From: Clostridiales bacterium
GTDB taxonomy: Bacteria > Bacillota > Clostridia > Christensenellales > Aristaeellaceae
Length of the DNA: 53,548 bases
Direction: 5' to 3'
NCBI GenBank assembly: GCA_015056125.1
Contig: SVGW01000010.1
Coordinates: 1-53,548 of the forward strand
Shown: positions 4,782 to 21,440 of the stretch, piece after piece
Position numbering within the stretch: position 1 is the stretch's first letter
Layout of the letters: every line of letters begins with the position of its first letter
The notes under the pieces: model-generated
Seen by the model: only the letters and a program-made list of their open reading frames with translations
Told to the model about the DNA's origin: nothing
Databases searched by the model: none
Position numbers and translations under genes: made by a program

Positions 4782-6593
4782 ATGTTATTTGCAGATGATG
4801 CATTCAAGAAAGCTGCGCTGGCAGCGCTGGGCGCGGAAGTGATTGAAAATGATGGACAATTGGCCCAAATAGACGCGCTTGAGGTGGAGGGCGCGTATAC
4901 TCTGAACGACCTGCCGCGCTTTCCTGCTTTGACATGGTTGAAATTGACGAGATGCGAGTTGAAAAGCGCGCTGGCTTTGCGTCAGATGAGTGGGCTGCGC
5001 AGCTTGCAATTATGCAAGGTGAACGGTGCAACGGCACAAGACATTGCGCCGCTGACCGGGCTTGTTGATCTTTGGATAGAGGACTGCGGCATATGGGACA
5101 TTGCGCCGCTGGCCGTGCTGATCGGATTGAAGGAACTGACTTTGTGGGGCATGGGCATCAAAGATCTGTCGCCGCTGAAGAACATGACGCGCATGGAAGA
5201 TTTGTCCCTGTATCACAATCCGATTGAAGATCTGTCGCCCATTCGCGGGATGAAGCGGTTGAAGCACCTCACGATGCATGTGGATCATTTGAAAAACCGG
5301 CGCATTTTGCTGGAAAAACCATTTTCAACCGCATTTCAGGGTTACACGGATTTTCCGGAAAACGCGCCCGAGAGCGCGAAAAAGAAGAAGCCGCAGGGTA
5401 AACAGGCGCTGACTTGGCTGGCAAATGTACATCCGCGCCTGCCCTTTTGCCGGGATGCAGCGCTTTTCAAACTGACCGGCGGGCAGGAAAGGCTGGTCTG
5501 CCGGGACTTGGGTAGAGAGGAGTCGCAACGATTTGACCTGTATCTGGATGACAAGCCGCTTGCGGAGATATTCATCAATAGCAGTTGTGAATACTCCTGC
5601 CATTTCAGGAGCGGCTATGGCGACGGATTGATGAACGAGCTGCCCTGTCAGGCGGTGAGCGATCAGATAAACCGGGGCTTTGAGGGCGTGCGGCAGACGG
5701 GAAAATACCTGGCTCCGTACATGGCGCTGATGGAATCCGGGCTGTATGTGGTGGCTGACTTTGACATGTTCCCGGTCCGAAAAGATAGCGAAAAGGACTA
5801 TGATTACTTCTGGGACGTGCCTGTATTCAATGAGGAACTGCACTTTATACATTATTTTGTGGGCGGGGAAACGCAGAAGACGGACATCCCGCTGTTTCTG
5901 GCTCCCAGCCGCCGTGCAGCGGGCATGAGCCCCGCACGGGTGGAATACTATCGCGCTCGTTTTGCCGAAGGAGACGCGTTTCCACGTGCCATTGCGCTGT
6001 ACTTAAACGGCGGCGTGGCGCTGCTGCTGGACGGCCATCATAAGGCGGCGGCCTGTGCCATGGAGGGGCAGCGGGTGCGTACACTGGTCATCTTCCCAAT
6101 GGAAAAGATCAATAACGAGGAAGTGGAGGCGGCTGTGGCAAACGGCGTTCGCCTGTACCTACAGCGCGATATTTATCCGCGCCTAAAGGATGGAAAAAGT
6201 GCGGCGCTGTGCGATGGACAGGACAGAATCTTCGGCTGGGTATCCTGTTTGGAACACATGAAAAAGACCCGAGTGTACGCCGAGCCGCTCAAAGCGCCCG
6301 ACTGGGGCCGCGTGCCGGACGAGTGCCGCACAGAGCAGTTTAAGGATTATCCGCATGTTAGCGCGCTGGCGTTCGCCTGCAAGATGAATCCCCAGGAGGT
6401 GCGCCGCCTGCTTGCCGAGCAGAAGAACCGCCCCCGCGGGCAGCACGACATGGATGTGATCCACGAGTTGCGCGCCTTTGCCCATATGTTCCCGGACGGC
6501 AAATGGCTGTCGCCCACTGAACGTGAGTGGCTGAAGCGCCCGGATGATAAGTTCGAGGACTATGGCTACGAAGTGGAGCACCCGAATAAGTAA
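4782..6593 (+). CDS. Leucine-rich-repeat protein with ParB-like C-terminal motif
   Basis: The 603-residue protein starts after AAAGGGA at about 8 nt. Residues about 40-170 are leucine-rich repeats of the internalin/SDS22 type: units such as LTWLKLTRCELK, LVDLWIEDCGIWDIAPL, LKELTLWGMGIKDLSPL and MEDLSLYHNPIEDLSPI. No signal peptide or membrane segment is seen, so it is probably cytoplasmic. A long middle region (about 180-390) is unrecognised. Residues about 400-440 contain LLLDGHHKAAACAMEG followed by a V-x-T-L-V-I-F-P strand, which resembles the ParB/sulfiredoxin-fold motif. It is the first gene of the plus-strand island. Role unknown; target recognition through the LRR is a reasonable guess. 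Confidence 0.6.
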   Translation: MLFADDAFKKAALAALGAEVIENDGQLAQIDALEVEGAYTLNDLPRFPALTWLKLTRCELKSALALRQMSGLRSLQLCKVNGATAQDIAPLTGLVDLWIEDCGIWDIAPLAVLIGLKELTLWGMGIKDLSPLKNMTRMEDLSLYHNPIEDLSPIRGMKRLKHLTMHVDHLKNRRILLEKPFSTAFQGYTDFPENAPESAKKKKPQGKQALTWLANVHPRLPFCRDAALFKLTGGQERLVCRDLGREESQRFDLYLDDKPLAEIFINSSCEYSCHFRSGYGDGLMNELPCQAVSDQINRGFEGVRQTGKYLAPYMALMESGLYVVADFDMFPVRKDSEKDYDYFWDVPVFNEELHFIHYFVGGETQKTDIPLFLAPSRRAAGMSPARVEYYRARFAEGDAFPRAIALYLNGGVALLLDGHHKAAACAMEGQRVRTLVIFPMEKINNEEVEAAVANGVRLYLQRDIYPRLKDGKSAALCDGQDRIFGWVSCLEHMKKTRVYAEPLKAPDWGRVPDECRTEQFKDYPHVSALAFACKMNPQEVRRLLAEQKNRPRGQHDMDVIHELRAFAHMFPDGKWLSPTEREWLKRPDDKFEDYGYEVEHPNK

Positions 6594-6629
6594 AAATGAC
6601 AATTCGCGCTGTGAATATGACATGGTTTT

Positions 6630-6657
6630 TTTACGGATCGTGATGCGATGATATAAT
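6630..6657 (+). promoter_or_regulatory. Probable promoter for the HerA-type ATPase operon
   Basis: TATAAT (6652-6657) is preceded at 16 bp by TTTACG (6630-6635), 4 of 6 consensus. AAAAGGAGG and the ATG at 6689 follow. Confidence 0.5.
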
Positions 6658-6688
6658 ATCGACAAGACATCAAAAGGAGGTCTGTTAC

Positions 6689-9355
6689 ATGGCTAAGAAC
6701 GGTATTAAGGACGATGTTTTTCTGGATGTAAAGCCTAAGGACTTGCTGAAACAGCTGAGCCTTAGGGATCAGACCGTTGAATTGGATATCAATGTTCCGG
6801 ATAATTTTTACCAGACCCTGCTGGAGCAGCTTCTGGAACGGGAATACCTGAATGATACTTCTCATCGTGAGTTTTACATGACACCCAAGGGCAAGCAGAA
6901 GCCTATTCATTGGATGCAGATCACTCGACTTCCCGTACATCCTAATGATAATGAAAGCTATGATCTGCTTTCCCGGTGGCAGGGTGTCCTGTCCGGGCTT
7001 CATGCTTGGGGATATCGTTTGCTGTTTTTGCTGCTTCGATATGAAGGAAAGACGAAGCTGTATTTGGGTACAACGTCCACAAAGCAGGAAATTTCTGCGG
7101 AAGAAGCGGTTGAACAGTTGAGAGAAGCCTGCTTTGGATCTATGCCGGGTATGGGAACCAGAATCTTGGCATCCAATGTCGAGGTATGGGATGAAATTCA
7201 TGCACCATTGTCTGCCATGGATTCGATTGGTGCGGTAACAGGAATTCCTTCTTTCCGCGATGCAGAACAGAAAGGCGTATTGCAGACTCTCGATCAGCTT
7301 GCTTTTGGAATTCGGGACATCAATGGCGAGGATAAAGATTATGCTATGCTCGTGATCGCAGATCCCCTCAGCGACGAAAGTATCGCTGAGATTATTTCCA
7401 GTCACAGGCGGTTGAGCAGCCAGATTCATACAGCCGTAAAAATGACGGGCGGTCAGTCTTTGGGACGCGGCGAATCTAAAGAAGCAGAGGCAGCTGCGAA
7501 AGCAGGTATCGGCATACTCGGTACTGTTGTCGGCGGTATTCTTGGCGCATCCACCGGGGCGTATATTGGTTCTTCTATTGCGGGGGCTATCAGCGGAGCG
7601 ATCAGCAAACAGATCAATGTGAACGGTTCCGCCTCTACCAGCCGGGAATACCTGGACAAATTTGCCGAATTTGCCGAGGAAGCGACCAACCATCATACGG
7701 AACGATTGAATCAAGGCCGAAATTATGGTTTCTGGAATACGGGCATTTATGTTCTTGGAAGCACGCCCAGAGACGTGGTAACGGTTACCGGCATGCTGCG
7801 ATCCATCTATTCCGGCGAAGAAACATATTACGAGCCCATCCGCCTGCATCAGTTCAGTTCGAATTCCAAGGCGCTGAATATCGTCCGTGATCGTTTTGAA
7901 CTGTTGCCCATGATCGATCCTGAGGTCGTGAAAAAGGATGGATTTGCATATGGCAAGGATCAGTGGCATATCTTTGGCGAGTATTATCAGTATCTGTCCA
8001 CACCCATCAACACGAAGGAGCTTTCTCTTGTTACCTCTCTGCCCCGCCGAGACGTGCCAGGGCTGCGATTTGTAAAAACGGCTGTACGCTTTGCGAATAA
8101 TCCTGCGGAATTGCGTGATGACAAGATCACCCTTGGACGCATTGTTGATACCGGCATCGTTCAGTCGAATACCTATGATATTGATCCCAATTCTCTGGTG
8201 CGTCATGCCCTGGTGGCCGGCAGTACGGGCAGCGGTAAGTCCACCACCTGTAAGCGCATCCTGAGTGAAATTCTGGATCGTGATGTTCCTGTGATGGTGA
8301 TCGAGCCCGCCAAGGATGATTATGTTCGCTGGGCGATCGAAATGAACAAGTCTTTGCCGGCTGAAAAACAGTTTAAAATTTATATGCCCGGCGTGGATGA
8401 GCTGGATGGCGTAAAGATGGAGCCCTTGCATCTGAATCCCTTTGAGCCTGCGGCGATCAAAGGTGTTAAGGTGGATCTTCTCCAGCACTGCGAGACTTTT
8501 ATCACATTGCTTAACGCTTGCCTGCCCGGAGAGGATGTCGTTCCGATCCTGATCGAAGAAACTGCCTATGAGACCATCCGGGATGTGGCAGAGATGCTGA
8601 ACCGCGATTTGGAGGAAGGTGCGGTAGAGCCCATGGACAGCTATCCCCGGATCAGGGATATGGAGCTCATGGCTTCTCAGATCATGGCAAAGAAGCAGTA
8701 TTTCCAGCAGAACAAGGATAACCTGACGGAAATCCTCATTACCCGATTCAAGTATCTGCGCCGCGGCACCCGAGGCAAGATCCTCAATGTGTTCAAATCC
8801 ATTGATTATAATGAAATGTTTTCCAAAAATGTAGTCATCAACCTCAGCCGCTTGTCTGGCAGCAAGGATAAGGCGCTGATTATGTCCATGCTGATGCAGG
8901 CGCTGTATGAGTATCGGGTATCCTGCTATGTCCACGATGCCGAATATCGTGCCAAGGCGCAGCAGAACAAGCTCATGCATCTGACCTTGATCGAAGAAGC
9001 GCACAACGTGTTGATGAAGCCTGATAATAATGCCGCCAGTGGCAATCCTCAACGTGCAGCTGCGGATCTGTTTGGCAATATGCTTTCTGAAGTTCGCGGA
9101 TACGGTCAAGGCTTTATCGTGGTGGATCAGGTTCCCACCCGTCTCATTGACGATGCGATCAAGAATACCAACTACAAGATCGTCCACCGTCTGACAGCTC
9201 CGGATGATCAGGAGGTCATGGCCTCCTGCATGGCTTTCCGAGATGACCAGAAGTACATCATTCCAGCGCTGGAAAAGGGAAATGCAATCATCTGCGGCGA
9301 TGAGGATGATGCAGCAGCGTGGGTCAAAATTCCCGCCCCGAGCAAGCCTGTGTGA
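6689..9355 (+). CDS. HerA/DUF87-type ATPase with internal glycine-zipper segment
   Basis: The 888-residue protein has an excellent AAAAGGAGG site. The C-terminal half is a HerA/FtsK-clade motor: Walker A AGSTGSGKSTT (Lys517), Walker B LTLIEEAHN (Glu769-Glu770), and the HerA-like QVPTRLIDDAIKNTN with IVHRL near the end. Family members are hexameric DNA or peptide translocases. Unusually, residues about 270-305 form a glycine/alanine-rich hydrophobic hairpin with the GxxxG spacing of a glycine zipper, suggesting membrane association. The N-terminal 260 residues are unrecognised. No NurA-type nuclease lies next to it. Downstream genes follow at short spacing (25 bp to the next), so it probably heads an operon to about 12000. 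Confidence 0.8.
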   Translation: MAKNGIKDDVFLDVKPKDLLKQLSLRDQTVELDINVPDNFYQTLLEQLLEREYLNDTSHREFYMTPKGKQKPIHWMQITRLPVHPNDNESYDLLSRWQGVLSGLHAWGYRLLFLLLRYEGKTKLYLGTTSTKQEISAEEAVEQLREACFGSMPGMGTRILASNVEVWDEIHAPLSAMDSIGAVTGIPSFRDAEQKGVLQTLDQLAFGIRDINGEDKDYAMLVIADPLSDESIAEIISSHRRLSSQIHTAVKMTGGQSLGRGESKEAEAAAKAGIGILGTVVGGILGASTGAYIGSSIAGAISGAISKQINVNGSASTSREYLDKFAEFAEEATNHHTERLNQGRNYGFWNTGIYVLGSTPRDVVTVTGMLRSIYSGEETYYEPIRLHQFSSNSKALNIVRDRFELLPMIDPEVVKKDGFAYGKDQWHIFGEYYQYLSTPINTKELSLVTSLPRRDVPGLRFVKTAVRFANNPAELRDDKITLGRIVDTGIVQSNTYDIDPNSLVRHALVAGSTGSGKSTTCKRILSEILDRDVPVMVIEPAKDDYVRWAIEMNKSLPAEKQFKIYMPGVDELDGVKMEPLHLNPFEPAAIKGVKVDLLQHCETFITLLNACLPGEDVVPILIEETAYETIRDVAEMLNRDLEEGAVEPMDSYPRIRDMELMASQIMAKKQYFQQNKDNLTEILITRFKYLRRGTRGKILNVFKSIDYNEMFSKNVVINLSRLSGSKDKALIMSMLMQALYEYRVSCYVHDAEYRAKAQQNKLMHLTLIEEAHNVLMKPDNNAASGNPQRAAADLFGNMLSEVRGYGQGFIVVDQVPTRLIDDAIKNTNYKIVHRLTAPDDQEVMASCMAFRDDQKYIIPALEKGNAIICGDEDDAAAWVKIPAPSKPV

Positions 9356-9380
9356 CGATTTGAGACAAGGAGAGATCATT

Positions 9381-9794: not shown

Positions 9795-9812
9795 AGCTTG
9801 GAGGATATTTCA

Positions 9813-10133: not shown

Positions 10134-10166
10134 TAGTGCTCTCGAATCAGAAATGAGTGAACGTTG

Positions 10167-10832
10167 ATGAACCATGAATTGATAAATCTGCCCGAAAATA
10201 GGGCTGAGCAGACTTCGGTCGAGCAGCTGGAGGAAGGACTTTTTCGTGAATACATCGGAAAAGCAGAACCGTTGGCCATTGAGGCAGAACGTAGCGAAAC
10301 TGTGATTGGCGATCTGGAAGATACAGAGAACTGGCACTTTCAAGCGGAGCAGACATCCTGCGTGGTCGCCATCGAAGAAATGATTGCAGAACAGCTTCTT
10401 CAGCAGGACATGCCTGACGGGAAGATGATTGATTATTCCCAAATGCGCGGCTGGTATGAACCGATGAGCGGAACCTCTTTGGAAGATACAGGTAAGATTT
10501 TGGAAGCGTTGGGACTGGAAGTGGAACGGGGAGAAAACTACTCTGTTTCCGATTTGGTGGAATCGCTGGCACAGGGACAAAAGATCCTGTGCGCAGTTGA
10601 CGGCATGATGCTGCGGGATGCACGACTGGCGGAGATCCCCGGACGCAGCGCAAACCATGCGGTGCAGTTAGTGGGAATTGATTTTTCAGATCCGCAGAAA
10701 GCGCAAGTGATCCTTAATGATACGTTTGATCCCAATGGCAGAGGAATCCGTTATGATCTGGATCTATTTATAAACGCATGGAAAACCAGTGGTAATTTTG
10801 CGGTGATGGCGGAAAAAGGGGATGTTGCATAA
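10167..10832 (+). CDS. Peptidase C39-like cysteine protease-fold protein
   Basis: The 221-residue protein has a papain-like C39 pattern. The motif FQAEQTSCVVAIEEM gives an oxyanion Gln and nucleophile Cys65, SANHAVQLVGID gives His164, and ILNDTFDPNGRG gives Asp/Asn184-185. All three triad positions look intact, so the protein may be an active peptidase or transamidase. C39 peptidases classically remove double-glycine leaders in bacteriocin export, but here there is no fused ABC transporter and no signal peptide. The first 50 residues are unrecognised. The ATG overlaps the stop of a 4-codon frame starting at 10153, and the ribosome site is weak. Confidence 0.65.
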   Translation: MNHELINLPENRAEQTSVEQLEEGLFREYIGKAEPLAIEAERSETVIGDLEDTENWHFQAEQTSCVVAIEEMIAEQLLQQDMPDGKMIDYSQMRGWYEPMSGTSLEDTGKILEALGLEVERGENYSVSDLVESLAQGQKILCAVDGMMLRDARLAEIPGRSANHAVQLVGIDFSDPQKAQVILNDTFDPNGRGIRYDLDLFINAWKTSGNFAVMAEKGDVA

Positions 10833-11303
10833 ATGGATGCAAAAGAAATGATGCATCAATTGTCCACCCATTCGGTGGTCAGATCGGATATGGCCATGCA
10901 GGTACAGCTGGGGCTACCGTATCTTGACAAACGAATGGATAAGTTGTGCGTCAGCTGTCTGCCTCATCGGGAGGAATACCGGGATGGATGTGTGGTATTC
11001 TATCAGCCGCAGTATAGGATCACATGGGTTTATCCATTTCAAAAGATCATCGCTTTTGAAAACGCAGCATATTTTCGTCCGCTGAATTGCGCAGAACCAG
11101 TATGTTCTGTGAAGTCAGAAGAATATATTCTGCGCGGCAGGTCTGTTTTGAACGAGTTGTATGCGCAGTGCTCCGGATTGCTTGCCGCCTATGAACGGGA
11201 GGGTACGGTATCCGATGTCGCACTTCGCAGATATCGAAGAGAATATTACGAAGCAGTCCGGGAATTGGGGCTGACTGACATCTATGGAGAAAATCGCCTA
11301 TGA
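10833..11303 (+). CDS. Unrecognised 156-residue protein
   Basis: The ATG follows the preceding stop codon directly, and the end overlaps the next gene (ATGA), so translation is probably coupled to both. The protein is soluble, with no signal or membrane segment. It includes a CLPHREEYRDGCVVFYQPQ segment and an amphipathic, Arg/Tyr-rich C-terminal helix. I recognise no family. Tight packing between the C39-like protein and the LytTR regulator argues that it is a true member of the operon. Confidence 0.6.
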   Translation: MDAKEMMHQLSTHSVVRSDMAMQVQLGLPYLDKRMDKLCVSCLPHREEYRDGCVVFYQPQYRITWVYPFQKIIAFENAAYFRPLNCAEPVCSVKSEEYILRGRSVLNELYAQCSGLLAAYEREGTVSDVALRRYRREYYEAVRELGLTDIYGENRL

Positions 11304-12001
11304 TCTGCCTTGCTGTTTTTGAACCGGATGCAGGACGAAAGGCCATAATCAAAGACTTGTTAGTACGATATACCGTACAACAGAACTGTGAAATGGAATT
11401 GCTTTGGTTCGTGGATAATGATCCCATTCCAAAGATCGAAAAGCATGCGGAGAGGATACAGATCGCGCTCGTATCCCTTGATTATGGAAAAGGAATTGAA
11501 TCCGGGCAGCTTCTCTATAAACAGAATCCGGACTGCCGCATCCTGTATTATCAAGATTCTAAGTGCGATCTGGAACCGCTGCTTTCTACCCGTCCTATCG
11601 GGTTTTGTCTTTGGGAAAGGTGCGGAGAGACCTTTCTGGAGAAATTGGATCATGCTTACAATGATGTGCTGATGATCCAGACCACCTTCCGATATGAGAC
11701 GAAGAGCAAAATGTATCTTCTTCCGAAGCGGAATATTTTGTATTTCCAGAGCGATCTTCGATATGTTGATATCTGTACGATCCAGGGCGATCATCCCCGA
11801 ATTCTTGCAAAGCTTTCTGAAATCGAGCTTTTAGCAGGAAGCGTATTTGTGAGAATTCATAAAAGCTACCTGGTCAATGTGAAGCACATACTTTGGATAG
11901 ACAAGAAAAAACATTTGATTTTGCTGACAAATGGTGAACAACTGCCCGTTTCTGATGCCCAGTATGAGCAAGTGTGCGAAAGACTGCGGGTGCTGAAATA
12001 A
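11300..12001 (+). CDS. LytTR-family response regulator with degenerate receiver
   Basis: The 233-residue protein overlaps the previous gene by four bases. Residues about 135-230 form a LytTR DNA-binding domain: ILYFQSDLRYVDI, FVRIHKSYLVNVKHI and LPVSDAQYEQV are its hallmarks. The N-terminal 120 residues resemble a receiver, with Asp61 in ALVSLDYGKG as the possible phosphorylation site. However, the usual L-D-I-x-M-P context and the conserved Lys are missing, so phosphorelay control is doubtful. No histidine kinase is nearby. LytTR proteins bind direct-repeat sites; a likely target is the promoter just downstream (12136-12164). Confidence 0.8.
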   Translation: MICLAVFEPDAGRKAIIKDLLVRYTVQQNCEMELLWFVDNDPIPKIEKHAERIQIALVSLDYGKGIESGQLLYKQNPDCRILYYQDSKCDLEPLLSTRPIGFCLWERCGETFLEKLDHAYNDVLMIQTTFRYETKSKMYLLPKRNILYFQSDLRYVDICTIQGDHPRILAKLSEIELLAGSVFVRIHKSYLVNVKHILWIDKKKHLILLTNGEQLPVSDAQYEQVCERLRVLK

Positions 12002-12135
12002 CGCCTCCGTCTTCTGGCTTGGAGCCCGCGAGACAAAGTGGAATCTGAGACATCAGAAGGATGGATAACTGCAGAAGAAAGAACATATCCGTTGTATACT
12101 TGATTGAATGCTCTGTGCGCTGAAATCGAATATGG

Positions 12136-12164: not shown

Positions 12165-12196
12165 TGATTCATACAGAGACAAATGGAGGAAAGACA

Positions 12197-14305
12197 ATGG
12201 CAGCAGAGAGAATCATCGGCGTTGACTTCGGCACCAGCACATCGGTTATTCGGGTAAAGCGCTATGAAAACGGGAATCCCCTGGGTGAAAAACTGGAAGC
12301 GAAAGAAGTGGTCTTTGGCGACAGAGCCTTGGTTCCTACAGTTATCATGAAGAAGGATGATGCTGAGTCAGCATGCTATTTTGGCTATGAAGCGCAGCAG
12401 GGCAAAAAGAATTATACATACTTTCATAGCTTCAAGATGGATCTGGAAAGTAGCGATCCTGAGAAACGCGCACAGGCCAGACAGCTCACAGAAAGCTTCT
12501 TTTTGTTCCTTGCCAAGCAATACAGGAGCCAAAGCGAGGGTGGGCATCTTGGGAATCCGGATGACAAAGAGCGTACCATTGTCAGCTATCCGGTAAAGTG
12601 GAATGAAGGAACGAAGAACTTCATGCTCAAAACTGCGGCAAAAGCAGGCTTTCCAAATGTAACGGGCATGGATGAGGCGCAGGCTGCAATTCAGGCAGTG
12701 ATCGTCATGAATGCGGAGCACCTGCAAAAGCATGGCTTGCTGAAAAACGGCGTGGGAACCAATGTCCTGTTGATCGATATGGGAGCCGGTACCACAGATT
12801 TAGTGCTTGCCCGTTATACTCCTGGCGATGAAACGGAAACAGAAGTGCTGAATACCTGGCCCAAGAGCGGCGATATCCAGTTTGGCGGCAGAGAGATCGA
12901 CCATTTGCTGCAAAAGTTTTTCCGTCAAATGCTGGATGAGGATGATGCCGAAAGGATTTTTGCCCGCATTGGCACGGATAAATTCAAAAGCTGGAAAGAG
13001 GGAAACGTGTCTCCTGCCTTGCGTCAAGATGATTCCGTAACGGAATTTGCGGAGTTTGACAATTTGGCTGGGTTCCTGGGCCTTGATCTGGATTACTGCC
13101 TTGATCGCACAGCCTTTGAAAACTGCCTTGCCGATTACCTGAGGCAGTTCCCTCAGTTGATTAATGGATGCCTGCAGAATGCGGGCATGACTGGCAATGA
13201 TGTGGATCTGGTGATCGTCACGGGCGGCCACAGCCAGTGGTATTTTGTCAGGGAAATGCTGGAAGGGAAAATGCCGCAGCTTGGAAATGTGGATCTGCCT
13301 AAGATCAGAGAGAACCCCGGCAGGATTATCCCCATCTCCCGTCCGCAGGAAACGGTTGCATTGGGACTTGCCTACAACGGGATTCACGACACCGGTGAGG
13401 ACGAGCTTGTAGTTCCGGAGCCTCCTACTCCTCTGTGGCCGGACCCAATTGAAGATAAGATTTCCACGCCCACATTTACGATGGAAATTCGTCAAATCAT
13501 TTCCAAGCCTGAAGGATTTGTAGTTGAGGGAACCATTTCTTTGGGCGAAGTTGTTGCGGGAGATACGGTTTATATTTGGGATACTACTGGGAAAAAATGC
13601 CGCTCTGCGACCATCAAACGAATTGGTCTGTGCAGCAAAAACAATGGAACCATCATCAAGGATGCTGCGGCTGAAAACGATGTAGTAGCAGTGCGTCTTG
13701 ATAGGATCATGGCAACAGAGCTGTCTCAGGGGATGATTCTTTTCAAGGATACGGAAGAATTCCAGCATGCGCCGCTTCAATGGGTGCAGGAACGTGTTGA
13801 ACGCTGGAAGGCGCGTCAACCGGTGGTAACTGGTCCTAAAGCTGGAGGAGATTCTGACGGCGGAAACAACAGCAACGGTGGAACGATTATTAATGGCGGT
13901 GCTCTTGGCATTGGTTCTGATATCTATACGATTCCCCAAGGTAAATCTGTTGCTGGAGCTGTGCAGACAGTCAGAAAATTTCTTGTATCCAAGAAAATGG
14001 AAGTGCAGGAACTGAAAACGGAAGAAGGATATGTCGTTCAGGCACGAAAGAAGGGCTTGTTCAACAAAAATGCATCGGCTTTGGAGATTCGCTTGGCACC
14101 TATCGGCGATGATCAGGTAGCGATTAAGGTCGGAGGTGGAAAATGGGCATCCATCGCTGCAAAGTCTGGAGGCGCGATTGTTTCTACGCTCGTCCTTGGC
14201 CCACTGGCCCCCATCGGAGCTATTGCGTTCATAATCAGCGCAGGAGTTGATGCCCAATTGATCAGCGATACAAAGAAGCTCATTAAGGACTATTTCACCT
14301 GTTGA
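12197..14305 (+). CDS. Hsp70-family ATPase with EF-Tu-like domain and hydrophobic C-terminus
   Basis: The 702-residue protein starts at ATG 12197 after TGGAGGAAAG. The N-terminal actin-like ATPase shows phosphate-1 GVDFGTSTSV (8-17), phosphate-2 LLIDMGAGTTDLVL (about 191-204) and adenosine motif VIVTGGHSQW (about 339-348). Instead of the DnaK substrate-binding domain, residues about 425-518 form a beta-barrel like EF-Tu domain 2 (GEVVAGDTVYIWD, GMILFKD). A Gly/Asn-rich linker follows, then a C-terminal module (575-702) with a Gly-rich turn and a hydrophobic run at about 658-681, which may touch a membrane. No grpE or dnaJ is adjacent, though a DnaJ-type zinc finger is encoded at 18984. Confidence 0.85.
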   Translation: MAAERIIGVDFGTSTSVIRVKRYENGNPLGEKLEAKEVVFGDRALVPTVIMKKDDAESACYFGYEAQQGKKNYTYFHSFKMDLESSDPEKRAQARQLTESFFLFLAKQYRSQSEGGHLGNPDDKERTIVSYPVKWNEGTKNFMLKTAAKAGFPNVTGMDEAQAAIQAVIVMNAEHLQKHGLLKNGVGTNVLLIDMGAGTTDLVLARYTPGDETETEVLNTWPKSGDIQFGGREIDHLLQKFFRQMLDEDDAERIFARIGTDKFKSWKEGNVSPALRQDDSVTEFAEFDNLAGFLGLDLDYCLDRTAFENCLADYLRQFPQLINGCLQNAGMTGNDVDLVIVTGGHSQWYFVREMLEGKMPQLGNVDLPKIRENPGRIIPISRPQETVALGLAYNGIHDTGEDELVVPEPPTPLWPDPIEDKISTPTFTMEIRQIISKPEGFVVEGTISLGEVVAGDTVYIWDTTGKKCRSATIKRIGLCSKNNGTIIKDAAAENDVVAVRLDRIMATELSQGMILFKDTEEFQHAPLQWVQERVERWKARQPVVTGPKAGGDSDGGNNSNGGTIINGGALGIGSDIYTIPQGKSVAGAVQTVRKFLVSKKMEVQELKTEEGYVVQARKKGLFNKNASALEIRLAPIGDDQVAIKVGGGKWASIAAKSGGAIVSTLVLGPLAPIGAIAFIISAGVDAQLISDTKKLIKDYFTC

Positions 14306-14336
14306 GTTATCTTCCTGAATCAAGGAGGTAAATGGT

Positions 14337-14915: not shown

Positions 14916-15032
14916 TCACACCGCAAAGGGAGCGCCATATCAAATGGACAGTTGATGCGGCGTACCCGTGTTTTCTACAGAGGCTGGCAGGCGAAGAAAA
15001 GATTATCAGGATGCCGGGAGGCGGATTGAAAA

Positions 15033-15494
15033 ATGAAGCTGTTGGATCGCCTGTTTGGAAGAAGGGCTGTTCAGGAAGAAAAGCCAAGCACCCCTGCGGG
15101 GCAAGACATCCCTAAAACAGGCATGAATGCTGAGAAACAGCGCCGCATACTGATTTCAAAGTGCCTGGAGGTACTGAAAGATCAGATGGATGCGCACATG
15201 AATGAGAGCGTTTTTGTTCCCTGCTCGGTTTCCTGTGATTTCCCCGGCACGAAGAACAAGGCGTTTCTTCGGGTGATTCCAGATGAATCGGATAAGGAGA
15301 TTTGCCGTCTCACTGCCAGTGCTGTGCGAAAAGGCAGTGACCTGTGTGTGATGAACTACCTGTTCAAGGGTACGCGGCAGGAGATGAAGGAATGGCTGGG
15401 CGATGATGCACATGCAGAGGAGTTAATCCCATGCATCGCCCATCTGTCTGAATCATTGGATAGCAAGCTGAATCAGGGAATTGCCCGGCCCTAA
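15033..15494 (+). CDS. Unrecognised 153-residue soluble protein
   Basis: ATG 15033 follows CGGGAGGCGG at a good distance. The N-terminus is basic (MKLLDRLFGRR) with a Pro-rich linker, then a mixed alpha/beta body containing FVPCSVSCDFPGTKNKAFLR and VMNYLFKGTRQEMKEWL. No signal peptide, membrane segment or known catalytic motif is visible. It lies between the membrane-anchored protein and the ADP-ribosylglycohydrolase fusion, all on one strand. The 117 bp before it contain no other convincing frame. Confidence 0.55.
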   Translation: MKLLDRLFGRRAVQEEKPSTPAGQDIPKTGMNAEKQRRILISKCLEVLKDQMDAHMNESVFVPCSVSCDFPGTKNKAFLRVIPDESDKEICRLTASAVRKGSDLCVMNYLFKGTRQEMKEWLGDDAHAEELIPCIAHLSESLDSKLNQGIARP

Positions 15495-15550
15495 AATAAC
15501 AGATGATGGAGGGAATCGTATGAACGGCAAGCCTACTGCCGCCGCATGAA

Positions 15551-17623
15551 ATGCTGCGCATTCTGAAAGAGCATACACGAACAGTGGATCGCCGCAGCAT
15601 TCCTTTGCTGCTGAATTCCAGGGACATTCAGACAGCGAAGCTGTACACACCCGATGAGATCGCTGCGCTGATCGAGTGCTTCTGCTGCGACGTTCCCTAT
15701 CGTGCGTCCAAGCTGATCGTCAATTTCAGCGAAAAGGACGCCATCAGCGAATACATGGGCTGGAACGACTACTGGCTGAAGTGGGAATACAATCGCGACA
15801 GGCAGTCCATTCCTACCCTGATCTTAAATTTCGCCGGTGCGCACCGCCCCGATGCCAATCAGTTTCCCATCGCCTACGGCCAGGAAAGGAGCCTGTTGGA
15901 AAACAGCACCCTGCTGGCCACGCTGGAGAATCCTGAAGCACATGCCTTTTACCTTTTCCAGCAGGCTGCAACCGATGGTATGCGTTCGGACGCCATGCTG
16001 CTCTCTCCCTACGTGGAGTTTTTCAGCGTGGATGGCGTGCAGCAGGAGAAGAGCCAGCTCGCCGCCGTGCTCTCAGCTGTACCGCCTCGCTTTAACGGCG
16101 ATTCTGAGGCAGTGAAAAAAGCACTTGAACGGCGTATCCGTGCCATGCTGCTCGTCGCTGCGAAAGAGGGCTACAGGCGGCTGATCCTCGGTGCATGGGG
16201 CTGCGGCAGCGCGGGCAACGATCCGGAACTCGTGGCCTCGCTCTTTGAAAAAGTGATCCGGGAACATGTGCATATTACGGATGCTCGTGGTGAGGAGACG
16301 CTGCACAGCTGGCAGGATTTCTTTGATTCCATCACCTTCCCAGTGCCGCCTGGTTCCGCCAGCGCAGCATTTAAAAATCATTTTTCCGATTTTTACCGTG
16401 CAGAGCGCGAGGAAAGGCACAACAGAATCAGGGCAGAAATCGCATCTGACCGTGAAAAATATCTCTCTGCTATCAAGGGCAGCCTGGTCGGCGGTGCAAT
16501 TGGCGATGCGCTGGGCTATCCGGTAGAGTTCATGCCCTATAACAGCATCATCAGGCATCATGGAGAAGGCGGTATTCAGCATTATGAAAAGAACCTTGAA
16601 ACCGGCCTTGCCCTGATTTCCGATGACACGCAGATGACGCTTTTTACCGCAGCGGGCATGCTGGTAGGTGAAACCCGTGGAGCCATGCGCGGCGTTGCAG
16701 GTTCTATGGAAAGCTACATTTATTATGCCTATCGCGACTGGTACTTCTGCCAGTGCAGCGCAGAGGCACCCGGGGAGGATGGCATATGGAAAAGCCAAGG
16801 CCACAGCCTGAACACATCCTGGCTGTCTTATTTACCGGAAATGCAGCAGCGGCGTGCGCCGGGAAATACCTGCCTGAGTGCGCTGGGTTCTGGCGATAGC
16901 GGCACGCTGGAGGAGCCCATCAACCACAGCAAGGGCTGCGGCGGCATCATGCGCATTGCGCCGGTTGCGCTGTTTTACAATCACAGGGCAGAAAAAAAAC
17001 GCGAATGGCTGGTGGATATCTGCTCCACTGCTGCGAAGGCGGCGGCGCTGACCCACGGTCACCCGCTGGGCTATATGCCGGCGGCAGCGCTTGCGCATAT
17101 CATCTCCCGCGCAATCTTTGGCGGTTGCCCCTATGAAAACGAGCTGCACGGCATCCTGAAGGAGTGCAGGGAATTGATGCGGGACATGTTTGAGGGCGAG
17201 CCATATTTGCCCAAGATGCTTTCCCTGATGGAGCGGGCCGAGGAGCTTGCTGCCAACGATAAATCAGATGCGGAAAACATCGAAAGCCTTGGAGGCGGGT
17301 GGGTCGCGGAGGAAACTCTGGCCATCGCCATCTACTGCTGCCTGAGGTACTCGGACGATTTTTCCAAGGCTGTCATTGCCGCAGTCAACCATTCCGGCGA
17401 CAGCGATTCCACCGGCGCGGTTACCGGAAACATCATGGGCGCGTGGTTGGGATATGAAAAAATCGATCCTGTGTGGCTAAAGGATCTGGAACTCAGGAAC
17501 GTGATCGAAGAAGTGGCGACCGATCTGTGCGACCATTGCCGCATGAGCGAATTCGGCGATTATCGGGATAAAGATTGGGAGCGTAAATATATCAATTTTG
17601 GCAAGCCCAATCAGGAATCGTGA
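15551..17623 (+). CDS. Degenerate PARG-type macrodomain fused to ADP-ribosylglycohydrolase
   Basis: The 690-residue protein has two ADP-ribose domains. Residues about 1-275 match the microbial PARG-like family TIGR02452/DUF2263 (ILNFAGAHRPD, LILGAWGCGSAGNDPEL). The catalytic GGG loop is replaced by PDA (100-102), and the QEE signature reads QER (111-113), so hydrolysis is unlikely and ADP-ribose binding more likely. Residues about 303-690 are an ARH/DraG-type hydrolase with intact metal motifs: GAIGDALGYPVEF, SDDTQM (357-362), KGCGGIMRIAP (about 461-471) and NHSGDSDSTGAVTG (Asp617, Asp619). It should remove ADP-ribose from proteins or related adducts. The start is odd: a good ribosome site serves ATG 15520, whose frame ends at 15549. 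Confidence 0.85.
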   Translation: MLRILKEHTRTVDRRSIPLLLNSRDIQTAKLYTPDEIAALIECFCCDVPYRASKLIVNFSEKDAISEYMGWNDYWLKWEYNRDRQSIPTLILNFAGAHRPDANQFPIAYGQERSLLENSTLLATLENPEAHAFYLFQQAATDGMRSDAMLLSPYVEFFSVDGVQQEKSQLAAVLSAVPPRFNGDSEAVKKALERRIRAMLLVAAKEGYRRLILGAWGCGSAGNDPELVASLFEKVIREHVHITDARGEETLHSWQDFFDSITFPVPPGSASAAFKNHFSDFYRAEREERHNRIRAEIASDREKYLSAIKGSLVGGAIGDALGYPVEFMPYNSIIRHHGEGGIQHYEKNLETGLALISDDTQMTLFTAAGMLVGETRGAMRGVAGSMESYIYYAYRDWYFCQCSAEAPGEDGIWKSQGHSLNTSWLSYLPEMQQRRAPGNTCLSALGSGDSGTLEEPINHSKGCGGIMRIAPVALFYNHRAEKKREWLVDICSTAAKAAALTHGHPLGYMPAAALAHIISRAIFGGCPYENELHGILKECRELMRDMFEGEPYLPKMLSLMERAEELAANDKSDAENIESLGGGWVAEETLAIAIYCCLRYSDDFSKAVIAAVNHSGDSDSTGAVTGNIMGAWLGYEKIDPVWLKDLELRNVIEEVATDLCDHCRMSEFGDYRDKDWERKYINFGKPNQES

Positions 17624-17662
17624 GATTTGGAAGAATCAACCACTGTACAAGGAGAGAGATAG

Positions 17663-18031
17663 ATGAGTAAGCAAATGAACAAGATGAAGAAACTCAGCTC
17701 TGCTGAATTGATCACCAGGCTCAGAAGCTCCAAAACTCTTGAATGCAGTCCTATCGCCTATGTGGTCGATCTTCTGGATGCGTATTTTCAGGGGAAATTT
17801 ACCGCACAAAAACTGTGTGCAGAGTATCATTTTGAAACGAAAAAGGCGCAGTTTGTGTTTTTTCATATGTCAAAACGTGATATAGAGGATAACAAGCGCG
17901 TGTTCAAGAAGGAATTTACTTTTGGGGATGGCTTGACGGCTGTTCTTGAGCAGCAGGTTGATTCGCTGGATGCGCCTGCGTTTGACAAAGCGCTTCGGGA
18001 ATGTGTGGAAGCCTATCTTGCATCCTCATAA
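17663..18031 (+). CDS. Unrecognised 122-residue protein between two ADP-ribose genes
   Basis: ATG 17663 follows AAGGAGAGAG. The protein is basic at the N-terminus, then helical, with no signal or membrane segment. Recognisable stretches are YVVDLLDAYFQGKFTAQKLC and FFHMSKRDIEDNKRVFKKEF. I recognise no family and no catalytic motif. Its position between the ARH fusion and the NADAR gene suggests a link with ADP-ribose turnover, either as a small partner or as a modified target; this is context only. Confidence 0.6.
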   Translation: MSKQMNKMKKLSSAELITRLRSSKTLECSPIAYVVDLLDAYFQGKFTAQKLCAEYHFETKKAQFVFFHMSKRDIEDNKRVFKKEFTFGDGLTAVLEQQVDSLDAPAFDKALRECVEAYLASS

Positions 18032-18095
18032 GCCATGAGGTGACATATCAGAAAACTGCTGCGTTAAGCTGGATCATCAAACGGAAGGCGATAAA

Positions 18096-18929
18096 ATGAA
18101 GTACATGACGCCCATTTGGCTGCGTTACCCACAGGTTGAGCCCGATTCCATCGAATGGCGCATGGGATTGGGAGAAGAGTATATCGCCCGGTGGATTGCA
18201 TGGAAAAAGCAGCTTTCCGCTGATGAAAAACGGGAATATGACGCGCTTTTCCCCGTTCCTGTTCTGTGGCATGGCTATTTTCCGGAAAAGAAGGCATGTA
18301 AGGAATATCATCACGGAGCCTTTACCATGCCGCTGTGGAGGAATAAGGGGCTTCCGAAGTATTCGCTGCGTAAATTGCAGCTTTCTGAGCAGGAAAAGCC
18401 TGCAGAATACTGCTTCTTCTGGGGACATCATCCCGCCGCGGACGGCAGCATCACCAAAAACTGCTTCAGCCAGTGGTATAAATCTGATTTTCTTTCCTAT
18501 GGCGTTCCATATTGCTGCATGGAGCAGTATATGATGGCGCAGAAAGCAGCGCTTTTCGGCGATAAAGAAATCCACAAGCAAATCCTTGATTGCGACGATC
18601 CCGCTGAGATCAAAAAGCTGGGTCGGCGCGTACGAAGGTTTGATGCGTCTGTGTGGGATCAGGCGAAATATTCCATTGTACTGAACGGCAACTGGAAGAA
18701 ATTTTCGCAGAATCCCCAGCTGCGTGATTTCCTGCTGAGTACGGGAGAGCAAATTCTGGTGGAGGCAAGTCCGTATGATACCATATGGGGGATCGGTTTG
18801 TCCGCCGATCAAGCTGTTGCCGGACCGCAAGCATGGCGGGGCGAAAACCTGCTGGGCTTTGCGCTGATGGAAGTTCGGGATGAGCTGGCAAGGGTATATG
18901 CAAATGCAGATATCCTTGATGATAGATGA
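18096..18929 (+). CDS. NADAR-domain protein (YbiA-like ADP-ribose glycosidase family)
   Basis: The 277-residue protein starts after CGGAAGGCG. Residues about 105-272 form a complete NADAR domain: FWGHHP, MEQYMMAQKAALFGD (Glu143), KKLGRRVRRFD, LVEASPYDTIWGIGL and ENLLGFALMEVRDEL. The family removes ADP-ribose or riboflavin-pathway N-glycosides, and members are known to reverse ADP-ribosylation of guanine. The N-terminal 100 residues (SIEWRMGLGEEYIARWIAWK, LWHGYF) are an extra region absent from minimal YbiA proteins. It lies two genes after the PARG-like/ARH fusion, giving three ADP-ribose modules in 3.4 kb. Confidence 0.88.
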   Translation: MKYMTPIWLRYPQVEPDSIEWRMGLGEEYIARWIAWKKQLSADEKREYDALFPVPVLWHGYFPEKKACKEYHHGAFTMPLWRNKGLPKYSLRKLQLSEQEKPAEYCFFWGHHPAADGSITKNCFSQWYKSDFLSYGVPYCCMEQYMMAQKAALFGDKEIHKQILDCDDPAEIKKLGRRVRRFDASVWDQAKYSIVLNGNWKKFSQNPQLRDFLLSTGEQILVEASPYDTIWGIGLSADQAVAGPQAWRGENLLGFALMEVRDELARVYANADILDDR

Positions 18930-18983
18930 ACACGAAGGGAAAAAGTATCACCCAAAGACCGCTGCAAGGAGGAATGGCTGCTG

Positions 18984-19685
18984 ATGCTGAAGAAAAACGG
19001 CTTCTTATTGCTGTTGGTGGCGCTCCTGTCGTGCTTGCTGCTGTTTTGCATTAGCAAGATAGCAATTGTTGTGCCTAAACCTGTATCTGGCAATACGGCA
19101 GAGCCTACTTCTGCTGCTGTGCCTGTGAGTATTGATCTGGTGCTTCCTGCCCCGGATGTATATTTTGGATTAGCGAATGAGCCCCAATATGCGTCAGATA
19201 AGGTCAGTCCAATATATTCTTTGGATCTTGTTGATTATCCCGCTGCCAGCATCAAGCAATACATTTCGCTTCTGACAGAGAAGTATGGTCTCGCGGTCAA
19301 GCCGAAGGAAAACGATCGGATAGAATTCACAGGCACCACGCTCATCAATGACAACGGTCAGGAATGTGTGGAGATTCAATGGCTGGAAACTTCATTCGGC
19401 AACAGGCTGATGGTATCCTTCGGCAAAAACTGCGCTACTGCAGCACTGGAAACGCTGGAAAACACGCCGGACATACGAACAATCACAGATGGCGATTGGG
19501 TGGCGTGCACAAAATGTGGCGGCGAGAACCGCTGCCAGAGTTGTGAGGGCCGCGGCCGCTGGAGAGAATCGGATTGGGACGGCTACATATCGAAGAGCTG
19601 TTCCGTCTGCAACGGTGATGGCAAATGTCATGCCGACGGCTGCATAAATGGCCGCGTGTTCCGCCCAAAGGAAGAAAAGCAATGA
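18984..19685 (+). CDS. Membrane-anchored protein with DnaJ-type zinc finger
   Basis: The 233-residue protein starts at ATG 18984, 11 nt after AAGGAGG; ATG 18974 is too close to that site and leads into another frame. Residues about 5-30 are a strongly hydrophobic signal-anchor. After a Ser/Thr/Pro linker comes an unrecognised domain (about 50-165). Residues 175-225 form a Cys-rich cluster with CTKCGGENRCQSCEGRG, then CSVCNGDGKC and DGCINGR: the CxxCxGxG repeats of DnaJ zinc-finger modules. No J-domain is present. Such fingers bind unfolded peptides, so a link with the Hsp70-like gene is plausible, but the topology puts the finger outside the membrane. Confidence 0.75.
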   Translation: MLKKNGFLLLLVALLSCLLLFCISKIAIVVPKPVSGNTAEPTSAAVPVSIDLVLPAPDVYFGLANEPQYASDKVSPIYSLDLVDYPAASIKQYISLLTEKYGLAVKPKENDRIEFTGTTLINDNGQECVEIQWLETSFGNRLMVSFGKNCATAALETLENTPDIRTITDGDWVACTKCGGENRCQSCEGRGRWRESDWDGYISKSCSVCNGDGKCHADGCINGRVFRPKEEKQ

Positions 19686-19808
19686 TCTGTTCGCGAAACA
19701 TGCGGGCATCCAACGTGTTCCAGAAATGCGATATAAAACCCGATGCTGCTTATGTGCGTGGTCTTTTGACAGAAAACGAGTGCCCCCGGAAAGAAAGGAG
19801 GATCCGGA

Positions 19809-20951
19809 ATGTACCTATGGCATCAATTGCTGAACAAAATCCGCAAAGCTTCCACAAATGCCCAGCCTTTGGAAGCGGAAAAGTCTGAATTATCCCCCGC
19901 GTCTCCCGCGACGCAGCTGCATCCGACCACGGCCCTGATGGCTCCTTTGTCTGCCGATCAGTTGTCTTCCGCACTGGAAACCTGGCGGCAGCAGCATGAT
20001 TTCATTCAGGCCAAAATTAATGAGGAATGGGATCGCACCCAGGATCAGCTGGATCAAAGGCAGCAGGCCTACTTGCGCACATTACATCCTTTTTTGAGGT
20101 ATTATGTGCCTCTGCAAAGCTTTGATCGCGCCGTTATTAAAACGGATGAGTTTTGCGTTTCTGGAGAAGAGATGCGCAAGATGTCATTAAGTTATTTTGT
20201 CGCGCTGGATTATTTTCGCAATCTAATGAAACAGCCAACCCCGGATGTGATCGCTTATCTGAACAAAAGTAAAGCAGAAATGTCCCACGAAGATTGGGCG
20301 CTGGTGGAGCGTTACCAGCCAGATGCTGCGCTGATCGTAAAAAAGGCAGTTGCAGCGCACGAACACTTTCATCGGCGTATTCCTGATAATTTTCGTTGGG
20401 AGATCACTCAAAAAGAGGTCGATACGTATTGGAAGCAATATGGTTCGTCTAATCTGAAGTATCAAGCTGCGTATGAACTGGCTCGACATGGTCAGGCGGA
20501 TGATTTCCTGCCTGCCCCTTTCAGGTTTCTGGGCTATATGGGGCCGGACTGGGATCAAGGCGGGATGACATTCGCTATTGATCGGAACTGCTTTGCCGAT
20601 CCCGATCCCTTACTGTGCTATTGGGAAAGTGAAATGCCGGAGATTGACTGGGCTCAGGCCCAGGAAGAGCCCTATGTGCTGACTGAAGATGCGTATGAAT
20701 ATCAGCAGCAAATTTTGGAACAATTTCGGTCCCTGTCCAGCGGTATCGTCCCCCTGCGCATTCAAGGCCACTTCTTTTTCCGGTTGGATGTGCACGCCAT
20801 AAAAGCCAGCTTCCCCCATTTTGGCGAGGACTTGCCAACGGCTGAATTGAGCCCTTATCTTTTTGTGAAGTGTGGCAACCGGGATTTCCAAGCACACTTT
20901 GGTCAGGTTGTGGATGGTCAGATCGTTCAGTTGTATCTAAGAAGCATCTGA
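19809..20951 (+). CDS. Unrecognised 380-residue protein
   Basis: ATG 19809 has an excellent AAAGGAGG site. The protein is soluble, with a Ser/Pro/Thr-rich N-terminal linker (about 15-45), a helical stretch rich in Gln (QLDQRQQAYL), HEHFHRRIPDNFRWEI near the middle, and Trp/Tyr-rich acidic segments such as LGYMGPDWDQGG. HEHFH is not a standard HExxH site. No known family is apparent. The 123 bp before it hold no convincing gene, although a 68-codon frame (19682-19888) overlaps its start. It is the last large gene of the island. Confidence 0.6.
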   Translation: MYLWHQLLNKIRKASTNAQPLEAEKSELSPASPATQLHPTTALMAPLSADQLSSALETWRQQHDFIQAKINEEWDRTQDQLDQRQQAYLRTLHPFLRYYVPLQSFDRAVIKTDEFCVSGEEMRKMSLSYFVALDYFRNLMKQPTPDVIAYLNKSKAEMSHEDWALVERYQPDAALIVKKAVAAHEHFHRRIPDNFRWEITQKEVDTYWKQYGSSNLKYQAAYELARHGQADDFLPAPFRFLGYMGPDWDQGGMTFAIDRNCFADPDPLLCYWESEMPEIDWAQAQEEPYVLTEDAYEYQQQILEQFRSLSSGIVPLRIQGHFFFRLDVHAIKASFPHFGEDLPTAELSPYLFVKCGNRDFQAHFGQVVDGQIVQLYLRSI

Positions 20952-21089
20952 TTTTTCTGAAAAGTCCGTAACCATCGCAGGAGGCGTAAATGACTATGAA
21001 GCCCCCTAGCTGACATCCCTATGTGACTTTGTTTTTCTGGAACACGCCAAGGCAAATGCTGTTTACTATACTGTATCGGGTGATGAGGA

Positions 21090-21440
21090 ATGAGTAACTA
21101 TGCAGAATTCAATGAATTGATCTTCTTTGCGCAAGTGAAAAAACGTCCGGGAATGTTTTTCGGAAGAAAATCACTAATCAGTCTGAGAGATCATCTCTTT
21201 GGCATGAGCTATGCTTTTTCAGCCTGCGGTCATCCTGATGCCCTGATCCTGTTCAAGAGTTTTATCGAATGCTACAACAACAAACTGTTTCTCAGCGATC
21301 AGAACGGCTATGTCTGCTGGTGGAATCATCTTCTTTATATCAGCGGCGGCATGGATGACTTGGCTTTCGATTCATTCTATAGACGATTTGAAGCCTATCT
21401 TCTGGAAGAACATAATCTGAAGCTGCCTGAAGTTGAATAG
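21090..21440 (+). CDS. Small unrecognised protein, possibly immunity-like
   Basis: The 116-residue protein starts at ATG 21090 after GATGAGG. It begins with an acidic helix, then KKRPGMFFGRKSLISLRDHL. I associate an R-P-x-M-Y/F-F-G plus S-L-x-x-L pattern with small helical proteins found near polymorphic-toxin immunity genes, but cannot confirm it here. The region just upstream (20952-21089) contains short relics without a full frame, as expected at the decaying edge of an island. Function unknown. Confidence 0.5.
   Translation: MSNYAEFNELIFFAQVKKRPGMFFGRKSLISLRDHLFGMSYAFSACGHPDALILFKSFIECYNNKLFLSDQNGYVCWWNHLLYISGGMDDLAFDSFYRRFEAYLLEEHNLKLPEVE

Follow-up and report, generated by a model that had tools for sequence, protein, structure and literature searches.

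The window analysed here is a 53,548-nucleotide stretch of DNA from a Clostridiales bacterium of the GTDB family Aristaeellaceae (assembly GCA_015056125.1, contig SVGW01000010.1). Between positions 4782 and 21440 it holds an island of genes, among them those for a HerA/VirB4-like ATPase of 888 amino acids (aa), small helical proteins, a papain-like cysteine peptidase, a LytTR-type regulator, an Hsp70-type ATPase of 702 aa, a GrpE-like protein and enzymes of ADP-ribose metabolism. A first-pass annotation, made from the letters alone, had named most of these genes and proposed that they form a common apparatus. The genes it named are indeed open, all lie on the plus strand at the places it gave, and most are recognised by Pfam. 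Comparison with other genomes shows that the predicted HerA ATPase, an Hsp70 with an exchanged C-terminus and a putative peptidase occur together, often with the GrpE-like protein and often with LytTR.

The HerA–Hsp70–peptidase operon

Among 84,980 species genomes, a pattern scan returned 24 named loci of the 888-aa ATPase. With the window and loci L130 and L131, these made 27 loci, which were scored in six frames with profile hidden Markov models (HMMs). The core models were built from members of the same 27 loci, and 12 distant HerA/DUF87 loci, chosen without taxon matching, served as controls. The Hsp70-type ATPase is present in 25 of the 27 loci and in 0/12 controls (Fisher P 2e-8); the two loci without a match, L113 and L131, have about 1 kb or less of sequence ahead of HerA before the contig stops. 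The peptidase was found in 17 loci (Fisher P 2e-4) and the GrpE-like 192-aa protein in 16 (Fisher P 4e-4), each with 0/12 in the controls. LytTR gave 11 matches in the 27 loci, 10 of them on the HerA strand (window counted), and the conserved 156-aa protein matched in nine loci, including the window, and in both held-out genomes; neither family was detected in the 12 controls. Two held-out genomes, which count as one lineage (HerA 97.5% identical over 795 residues), carry the genes for HerA, GrpE-like, C39, 156-aa, LytTR, Hsp70 and Hsp70 proteins consecutively, that is, the whole core. Relatives of the ATPase, Hsp70, C39-like, LytTR, 156-aa and 192-aa genes also co-occur in other genomes in differing orders, and because six families recur together in this way, the gene set of the window reflects more than chance. 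The operon is real and its composition is conserved.

The 888-aa protein is a member of the HerA/FtsK superfamily, with a P-loop ATPase domain of the HerA/VirB4-type fold. It matches the defence-labelled PADLOC profiles HerA and mad8 (3.4e-16), as well as NCBIfam NF033849 (a serine-rich protein; 1.3e-28) and CedD (1.6e-22). The likeness to NF033849, CedD and mad8 is confined to the ATPase region, and two of the scores are far under the curated cut-off: 98.9 bits against 650 for NF033849 and 79.8 against 600 for CedD. Homologues are rare and patchy and occur in scattered gut bacteria. Of 200 genomes in the GTDB family of the window, 18 gave a match at E 0.001, its own genome counted, and just two other genomes of that family reach 47–50% identity (E <1e-230), the next best match standing at 1.9e-55. 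At E 1e-80, the protein is found in 3/391 genomes of the class, own included, and in 4/397 genomes of the family of Lachnoclostridium An138. In the HerA tree, four Bacteroidota sequences nest inside Firmicutes, and the window belongs to a supported clade whose 11 members are Firmicutes, many of them Lachnospiraceae, apart from L114 and L119, the closest copies of its own GTDB family. This placement makes horizontal transfer of the operon likely. In L116 the HerA gene is spread over two frames, and in L125 and L126 it runs off the end of the contig.

Relatives were also met on two cyanobacterial plasmids, from Planktothrix and Anabaena, where the HerA frames are full-length (900 and 887 aa; HMM E ~1e-200) and an HExxH protein is near each. 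The Planktothrix plasmid has an Hsp70 domain by HMM (9e-12); on the Anabaena plasmid a neighbour is annotated as Hsp70, and the HMM gave no match on the piece examined. The viral contigs searched yielded no relatives, and the phage collection yielded two partial protein matches and none by DNA. In the plasmid collection 41 records matched, none with 80% coverage, and none matched the Hsp70 ATPase part at 1e-15.

The 702-aa protein had been described as an Hsp70/EF-Tu-like ATPase. Its Hsp70 character holds, while the EF-Tu part is weak (domain D2, Pfam 0.086). The Hsp70 match stops at residue 355 and is followed by no DnaK-type substrate-binding domain, and for this reason the protein is classed as an Hsp70-type ATPase and not as a DnaK chaperone. 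Among 13 aligned proteins, the motifs DFGTST, DMGAGTTD and GHSQWYF, which we take to be the phosphate and adenosine motifs of Hsp70, are largely conserved, and the ATPase parts share a median identity of 55% (range 45–96%). The C-termini have detectable similarity in 22 of 78 pairs and carry RCC1, BspA LRR or Sel1 types, or none of these. Even in the held-out pair, the N-terminal 400 residues of the Hsp70s are 85% and 89% identical, whereas the matched C-termini are 43% and 70% identical and changed in length. The comparison thus shows a C-terminus that is swapped between recognition-type modules while the ATPase part is conserved.

Residues 662–680 of the window Hsp70 are hydrophobic, and the 192-aa GrpE-like protein has a transmembrane (TM) anchor, two features that support the proposed link to the membrane. 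An AlphaFold2 model of the 192-aa protein has a mean predicted local distance difference test score (pLDDT) of 90.6. With a long helix, a helical bundle and a C-terminal beta domain taken as the marks of GrpE, GrpE chains top both structure lists at weak scores (best Foldseek E 0.1). Alignment with GrpE by hhalign gave E 0.0063 and a probability of 6%, and solved structures searched with a profile of the 192-aa alignment offered no convincing match.

The 222-aa protein of the window is a predicted papain-like peptidase. Residues Q60, C66, H165 and N185-D186, presumably the catalytic Gln, Cys, His and Asn/Asp, are the same in all 15 aligned proteins. When the C39 alignment was used as a profile against solved structures, no convincing match emerged. 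Ten loci have no C39 match. Seven of these have an HExxH protein near HerA (L115, L116, L117, L118, L127, L130 and L131), L113 and L124 have a protein that is papain-like by eye only, and the 4.7-kb contig of L125 has no visible peptidase. The HExxH filter returned additional frames in L114, L118 and L127. A C-terminal tail shared by small proteins and some HExxH proteins was considered and is not claimed: leave-one-out recovered one of five well (g05, E 7.4e-5), and of the five matches that the tail pattern of the HExxH proteins has in 4363 frames, three fall in HExxH proteins.

As a separate observation, mutually related genes lie near HerA in five loci (L113 5233–6438, L122 8127–9068, L123 12285–13394, L124 13378–14502 and L131 8418–9845), and the L122 gene matches Radical_SAM. 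Together with the papain-like peptidase and the small proteins, these genes recall peptide maturation.

Other genes of the island and of related loci

The features of the island are listed in Table 1. The promoter-like site ends 31 bases 5' of the HerA start. In the window, the scan returned 27 promoter-like sites against 19.0 in shuffles and 29 terminator-like hairpins against 17.6, all of them consensus matches only. As far as consensus goes, the site and the hairpin are compatible with a single transcription unit from about 6660 to 21440, the LRR gene perhaps being separate.

Table 1. Features of the island (window positions, plus strand).
Feature	Position	Strand	Evidence or remark
LRR protein with C-terminal domain of ~390 aa	4782..6593	+	LRR_4 8.2e-10 (Pfam); upstream neighbour, non-conserved
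Promoter-like site ahead of HerA gene	6630..6657	+	Consensus scan, 10/12, TG before -10
HerA/VirB4-like ATPase, 888 aa, core	6689..9355	+	DUF87/HerA 1.7e-11 (Pfam)
Small helical protein, 137 aa	9381..9794	+	AGGAGA precedes ATG
Small helical protein, 111 aa	9798..10133	+	Weak paralogue of the 137-aa protein, pairwise E 3e-5
Predicted papain-like (C39/C70-like) cysteine peptidase, 222 aa, core slot	10164..10832	+	Peptidase_C70 1.2e-5, C39_2 0.0022
Conserved 156-aa protein	10833..11303	+	HMM matches across loci
LytTR-type regulator	11300..12001	+	LytTR 8.3e-17 (Pfam)
Hsp70-type ATPase, 702 aa, non-DnaK C-terminus, core	12197..14305	+	Hsp70 6.9e-11 (Pfam)
Membrane-anchored GrpE-like protein, 192 aa	14337..14915	+	TM-like residues 4-22; core in 16/27 loci
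153-aa protein	15033..15494	+	Chance-level Pfam row only, E 0.083
PARG-like + ADP-ribosylglycohydrolase (ARH) fusion, accessory	15551..17623	+	ARH 5e-64, PARG 6.1e-6
122-aa protein	17663..18031	+	Pfam: no family
NADAR-family protein, accessory	18096..18929	+	NADAR 3.1e-56 (Pfam)
TM-anchored protein with DnaJ-like zinc-finger motif	18984..19685	+	TM-like residues 6-24; zinc finger weak
380-aa protein	19809..20951	+	Top Pfam row E 0.68
116-aa open reading frame (ORF)	21090-21440	+	Last ORF ahead of hairpin
Terminator-like hairpin after 116-aa ORF	21470..21497	+	12-pair stem

The genes starting at 4782, 9381, 9798, 15033, 17663, 18984, 19809 and 21090 had zero tblastn matches (E 0.001) in 31 stretches, namely the 24 named loci, L130–L132 and L170–L173. 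The LRR/ParB, DnaJ-zinc-finger, 153-, 122-, 380- and 116-aa genes were therefore left out of the core; the first two, which the first-pass annotation had counted in the set, are not among its conserved members. The LRR assignment itself holds; the ParB likeness had been noted by eye, and Pfam gave LRR families alone. The C-terminal domain of this protein has relatives at two loci of another genome (G045), both without a HerA match. The protein at 18984 has a supported TM anchor, and its match to the DnaJ-type zinc finger is a weak one (Pfam 0.23, NCBIfam 0.0064). The two small helical proteins, annotated as paralogues, are so only weakly, and unrelated-looking small coiled-coil proteins adjoin HerA in some other loci.

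Insertion of the island at this place stays unproven, as little beyond the left-hand gene could be aligned within the genus. That gene is present in 3 of 12 other genomes, and in those three no further window sequence aligned there besides pieces of a spurious-looking ORF. A tRNA-Trp gene (2635–2708), about 2 kb ahead of the island, is a possible and unproven insertion site. Just 5' of the island, positions 3855–4538 encode a 227-aa protein with a HEDAH (HExxH-type) motif and without a convincing Pfam family. A 979-aa ORF on the minus strand (6566–9505) runs antisense across the entire HerA gene and is very probably an artefact of composition.

Across the loci, 103 non-core neighbour proteins were compared with Pfam and PADLOC. 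Among the matches listed (25 of 99 Pfam families), BspA LRR and zinc ribbon (5 each) and ARH and dynamin (4 each) are commonest, and at least two of the proteins match Pkinase. Among the PADLOC matches listed (25 of 52 families), LeoA and LeoBC occur 4 times each and mad6, PD-T4-6, C3a189 and MkoA twice each. Dynamin matches are confined to L104, L105 and L109, the other 24 of the 27 loci having none. In these three loci pairs of dynamin-like GTPases lie upstream of HerA (L104 171–5001, L105 770–5600, L109 4122–8705), with zinc-ribbon proteins too, and in L104 a gene for an M48 peptidase stands between the two GTPases.

ADP-ribose genes and their company

The ARH domain of the window fusion is practically complete (alignment 1–285 of 287), and the protein also matches NCBIfam TIGR02452 (1.9e-19). 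It is 43% identical to the PARG-ARH fusion of L121, with which it has in common DDTQMT and GDSDSTGA, assumed here to be the acidic metal motifs of ARH. At the site where L121 has PGGGVRYGARAQEE, the window has PDANQFPIAYGQER, so that the GGG...QEE pattern, which we take to be the catalytic signature of microbial PARG, is lost and the PARG-like part of the window protein is probably inactive. The NADAR domain is full-length (1–162 of 163) and matches PADLOC PDC-M42C.

At least one ADP-ribose gene is present in 8 of the 27 loci: ARH and NADAR in the window, NADAR and ARH in L108, ARH in L110, PARG-ARH in L121, a macrodomain in L104 and L105, a 78-aa ARH fragment in L109 and an ARH-macro fusion in L112. 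The first-pass annotation had predicted that the ATPase, the C39-like protein, the Hsp70 and an ADP-ribose gene would be met together elsewhere, and they are, in L104/L105, L108, L109 (the ARH fragment), L110, L112 and L121; homologues are not usually single, and the ATPase and ADP-ribose blocks do travel together. A NADAR fragment in the genome of L124 lies on another contig and was excluded from the counts.

The order of these genes differs from locus to locus. L108 reads NADAR-ARH-GrpE-like-HerA and L110 reads Hsp70-GrpE-like-phosphatase-ARH, both with short gaps; the phosphatase-domain protein of L110 is a relative of the 2H-type protein of L124, which DUF1810 adjoins. In L121, HerA is followed by genes for a methyltransferase, an RNA ligase, an HD-AAA_33 protein and PARG-ARH. 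A similar company is found in An138 (L132 6869–17411, minus strand), on the HerA strand and 17 to 27 kb upstream of that gene. This run comprises Hsp70-LRR, metallophosphoesterase, Sel1, nucleotidyltransferase-NADAR, methyltransferase, RNA ligase, HD-AAA_33 and ARH-nucleotidyltransferase-NADAR genes. It is headed by a second Hsp70 of the same type, and a relative of the 192-aa protein is in that stretch too. In its own right the run is a striking NAD/ADP-ribose/RNA-repair operon. In L109, positions 18054–19216 hold what appears to be a broken ADP-ribose/RNA-repair set, with the ARH fragment and DUF1810-like and kinase-like pieces.

These neighbours suggest a connection with nucleic-acid repair. 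Since RNA-repair genes accompany the ADP-ribose enzymes in L121 and An138, the enzymes may act on nucleic acid and not on the machine itself. Given this company and the optional presence of the genes, the proposed regulation of the apparatus by ADP-ribosylation is unproven, as is a role in defence; of the first-pass hypothesis it is the membrane link that is supported. The ADP-ribose hydrolases are recurrent optional accessories, repeatedly gained in part of the window's clade.

Known systems, rival explanations and meaning

The window HerA resembles the ATPases of SIR2-HerA (Nezha) and HerA-DUF4297, members of the same superfamily whose structures its predicted core fold matches. Here, however, the partners are an Hsp70-type ATPase and a peptidase, a longer N-terminal part precedes the ATPase domain, and Pfam gave no SIR2 or DUF4297 match for any of the 20 window genes that were scanned. 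Extended Type III-A CoCoNuT operons, in the portion of the source consulted, join a HerA/VirB4-like ATPase, an Hsp70-like protein, zinc ribbons and vWA (PMC11090510). vWA and zinc ribbons are present in L104, and the 20 window genes gave no Pfam match to the McrB-type GTPase or McrC of CoCoNuT. The GAP1-N2 GTPase systems, as far as the consulted part of their description goes, combine Hsp70 and GrpE with zinc ribbons, membrane placement and GTPases (PMC7159879). The likeness lies in the Hsp70 and putative GrpE-like pair, the membrane placement, the zinc ribbons and the dynamin-like GTPases of L104, L105 and L109; the differences are that no HerA core is described in that part and that 24 of the 27 loci have no dynamin match. 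Viral NAD+/ADPr and RNA-repair networks, in the sections consulted, link NADAR, macro and 2H domains to RNA-repair genes (PMC9503650), whereas the ADP-ribose genes studied here, ARH included, stand beside a cellular HerA-Hsp70-peptidase operon for which the phage and viral collections searched gave no close relative. In the consulted text of PMC11004492, DUF87 and Hsp70 appear only in unrelated contexts. The nearest described systems, judged from these partial sources, are the Hsp70-GrpE-GTPase systems and those CoCoNuT operons that include a HerA/VirB4-like ATPase and Hsp70. In the open-licence literature searched, no description of the HerA-Hsp70-peptidase set with ADP-ribose genes came to light, and the operon is undescribed as far as these searches show.

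The reading favoured here, at a probability of roughly 0.45, is that the island carries a mobile chaperone-ATPase-peptidase operon whose most likely role is conflict surveillance, directed at phage, a mobile element or a toxin. Several points weigh against it. The counts outside the held-out genomes are partly circular, because the loci scored also supplied the sequences for the HMMs. The GrpE-like assignment of the 192-aa protein is weak. The HMM gives no support for the papain-like protein of L124, and among the 12 controls the HExxH filter returned one frame, L096 10146–11201, directly beside a distant HerA, so that the HerA-zincin pairing may reach beyond the operon studied. No classical defence family dominates the 103 neighbours among the PADLOC matches listed. 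The ADP-ribose genes are absent from 19 of the 27 loci, and the contrast of 8/27 with 0/12 controls reaches P 0.04 only; one weak match to the fusion (3e-6) was seen in control L088 by single-sequence search. They are also absent from both held-out genomes (36–40 kb read in each) and for that reason are not core. L107 has no ARH-macro, which is present in its near twin L112, and this difference, together with the varying arrangement among loci, implies that the genes are gained and lost. No ADP-ribosyltransferase was seen, in data not searched systematically for one.

This turnover, like the absence from the held-out pair, would also be expected if two unrelated accessory systems, the HerA-Hsp70-peptidase operon and an ADP-ribose/RNA-repair cassette, shared integration hot spots without cooperating. 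Most ADP-ribose genes of the 27 genomes do lie elsewhere, with 11 of the 30 ARH, 34 macro and 13 NADAR matches over the cut-off falling inside the loci. This explanation is nevertheless improbable. Once the window and one member of a pair of sister strains are set aside, six of the remaining 25 loci carry ADP-ribose genes where 0.38 would be expected, the P of ~1e-6 being for uniform placement and taking no account of the clustering of accessory genes in islands; in L108 and L110 they sit within the operon at short intergenic gaps, and the NADAR/RNA-ligase/ARH run of An138 is headed by an Hsp70 of the same type and includes the 192-aa relative.

The main alternative to conflict surveillance, in our view an unlikely one, is a stress or proteostasis machine, in which an Hsp70-like ATPase, a dedicated exchange factor and a peptidase would handle damaged envelope or nascent proteins and the ADP-ribose and RNA-repair genes would mend damage. 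The pairing of Hsp70 with a GrpE-like partner and a peptidase suits it, as do the RNA ligase and kinase genes alongside ARH in L121 and An138. It is also favoured by the separate Hsp70 match with GrpE close by in the bacterium's own genome, which marks the operon as an added system. The rarity, patchiness and horizontal spread of the operon argue against housekeeping of this kind, as do Hsp70 C-termini of RCC1, LRR or Sel1 type in place of a DnaK-type domain, and a HerA/VirB4 ATPase would be unexpected in such a role. An apparatus for export or maturation, in which the VirB4-like ATPase transfers the small helical proteins, the papain-like peptidase trims them and the radical-SAM genes of some loci modify them, has little probability: Pfam scans recognised no further secretion or conjugation component (for the neighbours, among the matches listed), the window HerA and peptidase have no predicted TM segment, and none of the window genes scanned matches radical SAM.

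If the operon serves conflict surveillance, its action may be pictured as follows; the gene content, the domains and the conserved motifs are observed, and the steps below are inferred from them. The variable C-terminus of Hsp70 would sense a product of the invader or of stress, and the GrpE-like protein would reset Hsp70 at the membrane. The state of Hsp70 might then pass to a HerA hexamer, which would thread or displace DNA, protein or a small helical partner, and the peptidase would execute or release the response, with LytTR possibly tuning expression of the operon. As a protective arm, the ADP-ribose-stripping enzymes (ARH, macro, NADAR and PARG-like) could repair or neutralise ADP-ribosylated nucleic acid or protein. 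It is conceivable, and at present doubtful, that this amounts to an undescribed class of surveillance machine, with a HerA/VirB4-type ring, an Hsp70/GrpE-like switch that is tethered to the membrane and whose sensor ends are exchangeable and diverge fast, a peptidase whose class (papain-like or HExxH zincin) is replaced between phyla, and an arm for ADP-ribose removal and RNA repair that counters ADP-ribosylating attack.

The operon unites three fields that are usually separate, namely HerA motors, Hsp70 switches and reversible ADP-ribosylation. Its conserved Hsp70 ATPase with interchangeable, rapidly changing ends and its peptidase slot filled by two unrelated enzyme classes offer testable rules for sensing and action. 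Finally, the placing of ADP-ribose genes next to those for RNA ligase and kinase suggests a way in which gut bacteria may undo ADP-ribosylation of, or damage to, nucleic acid.

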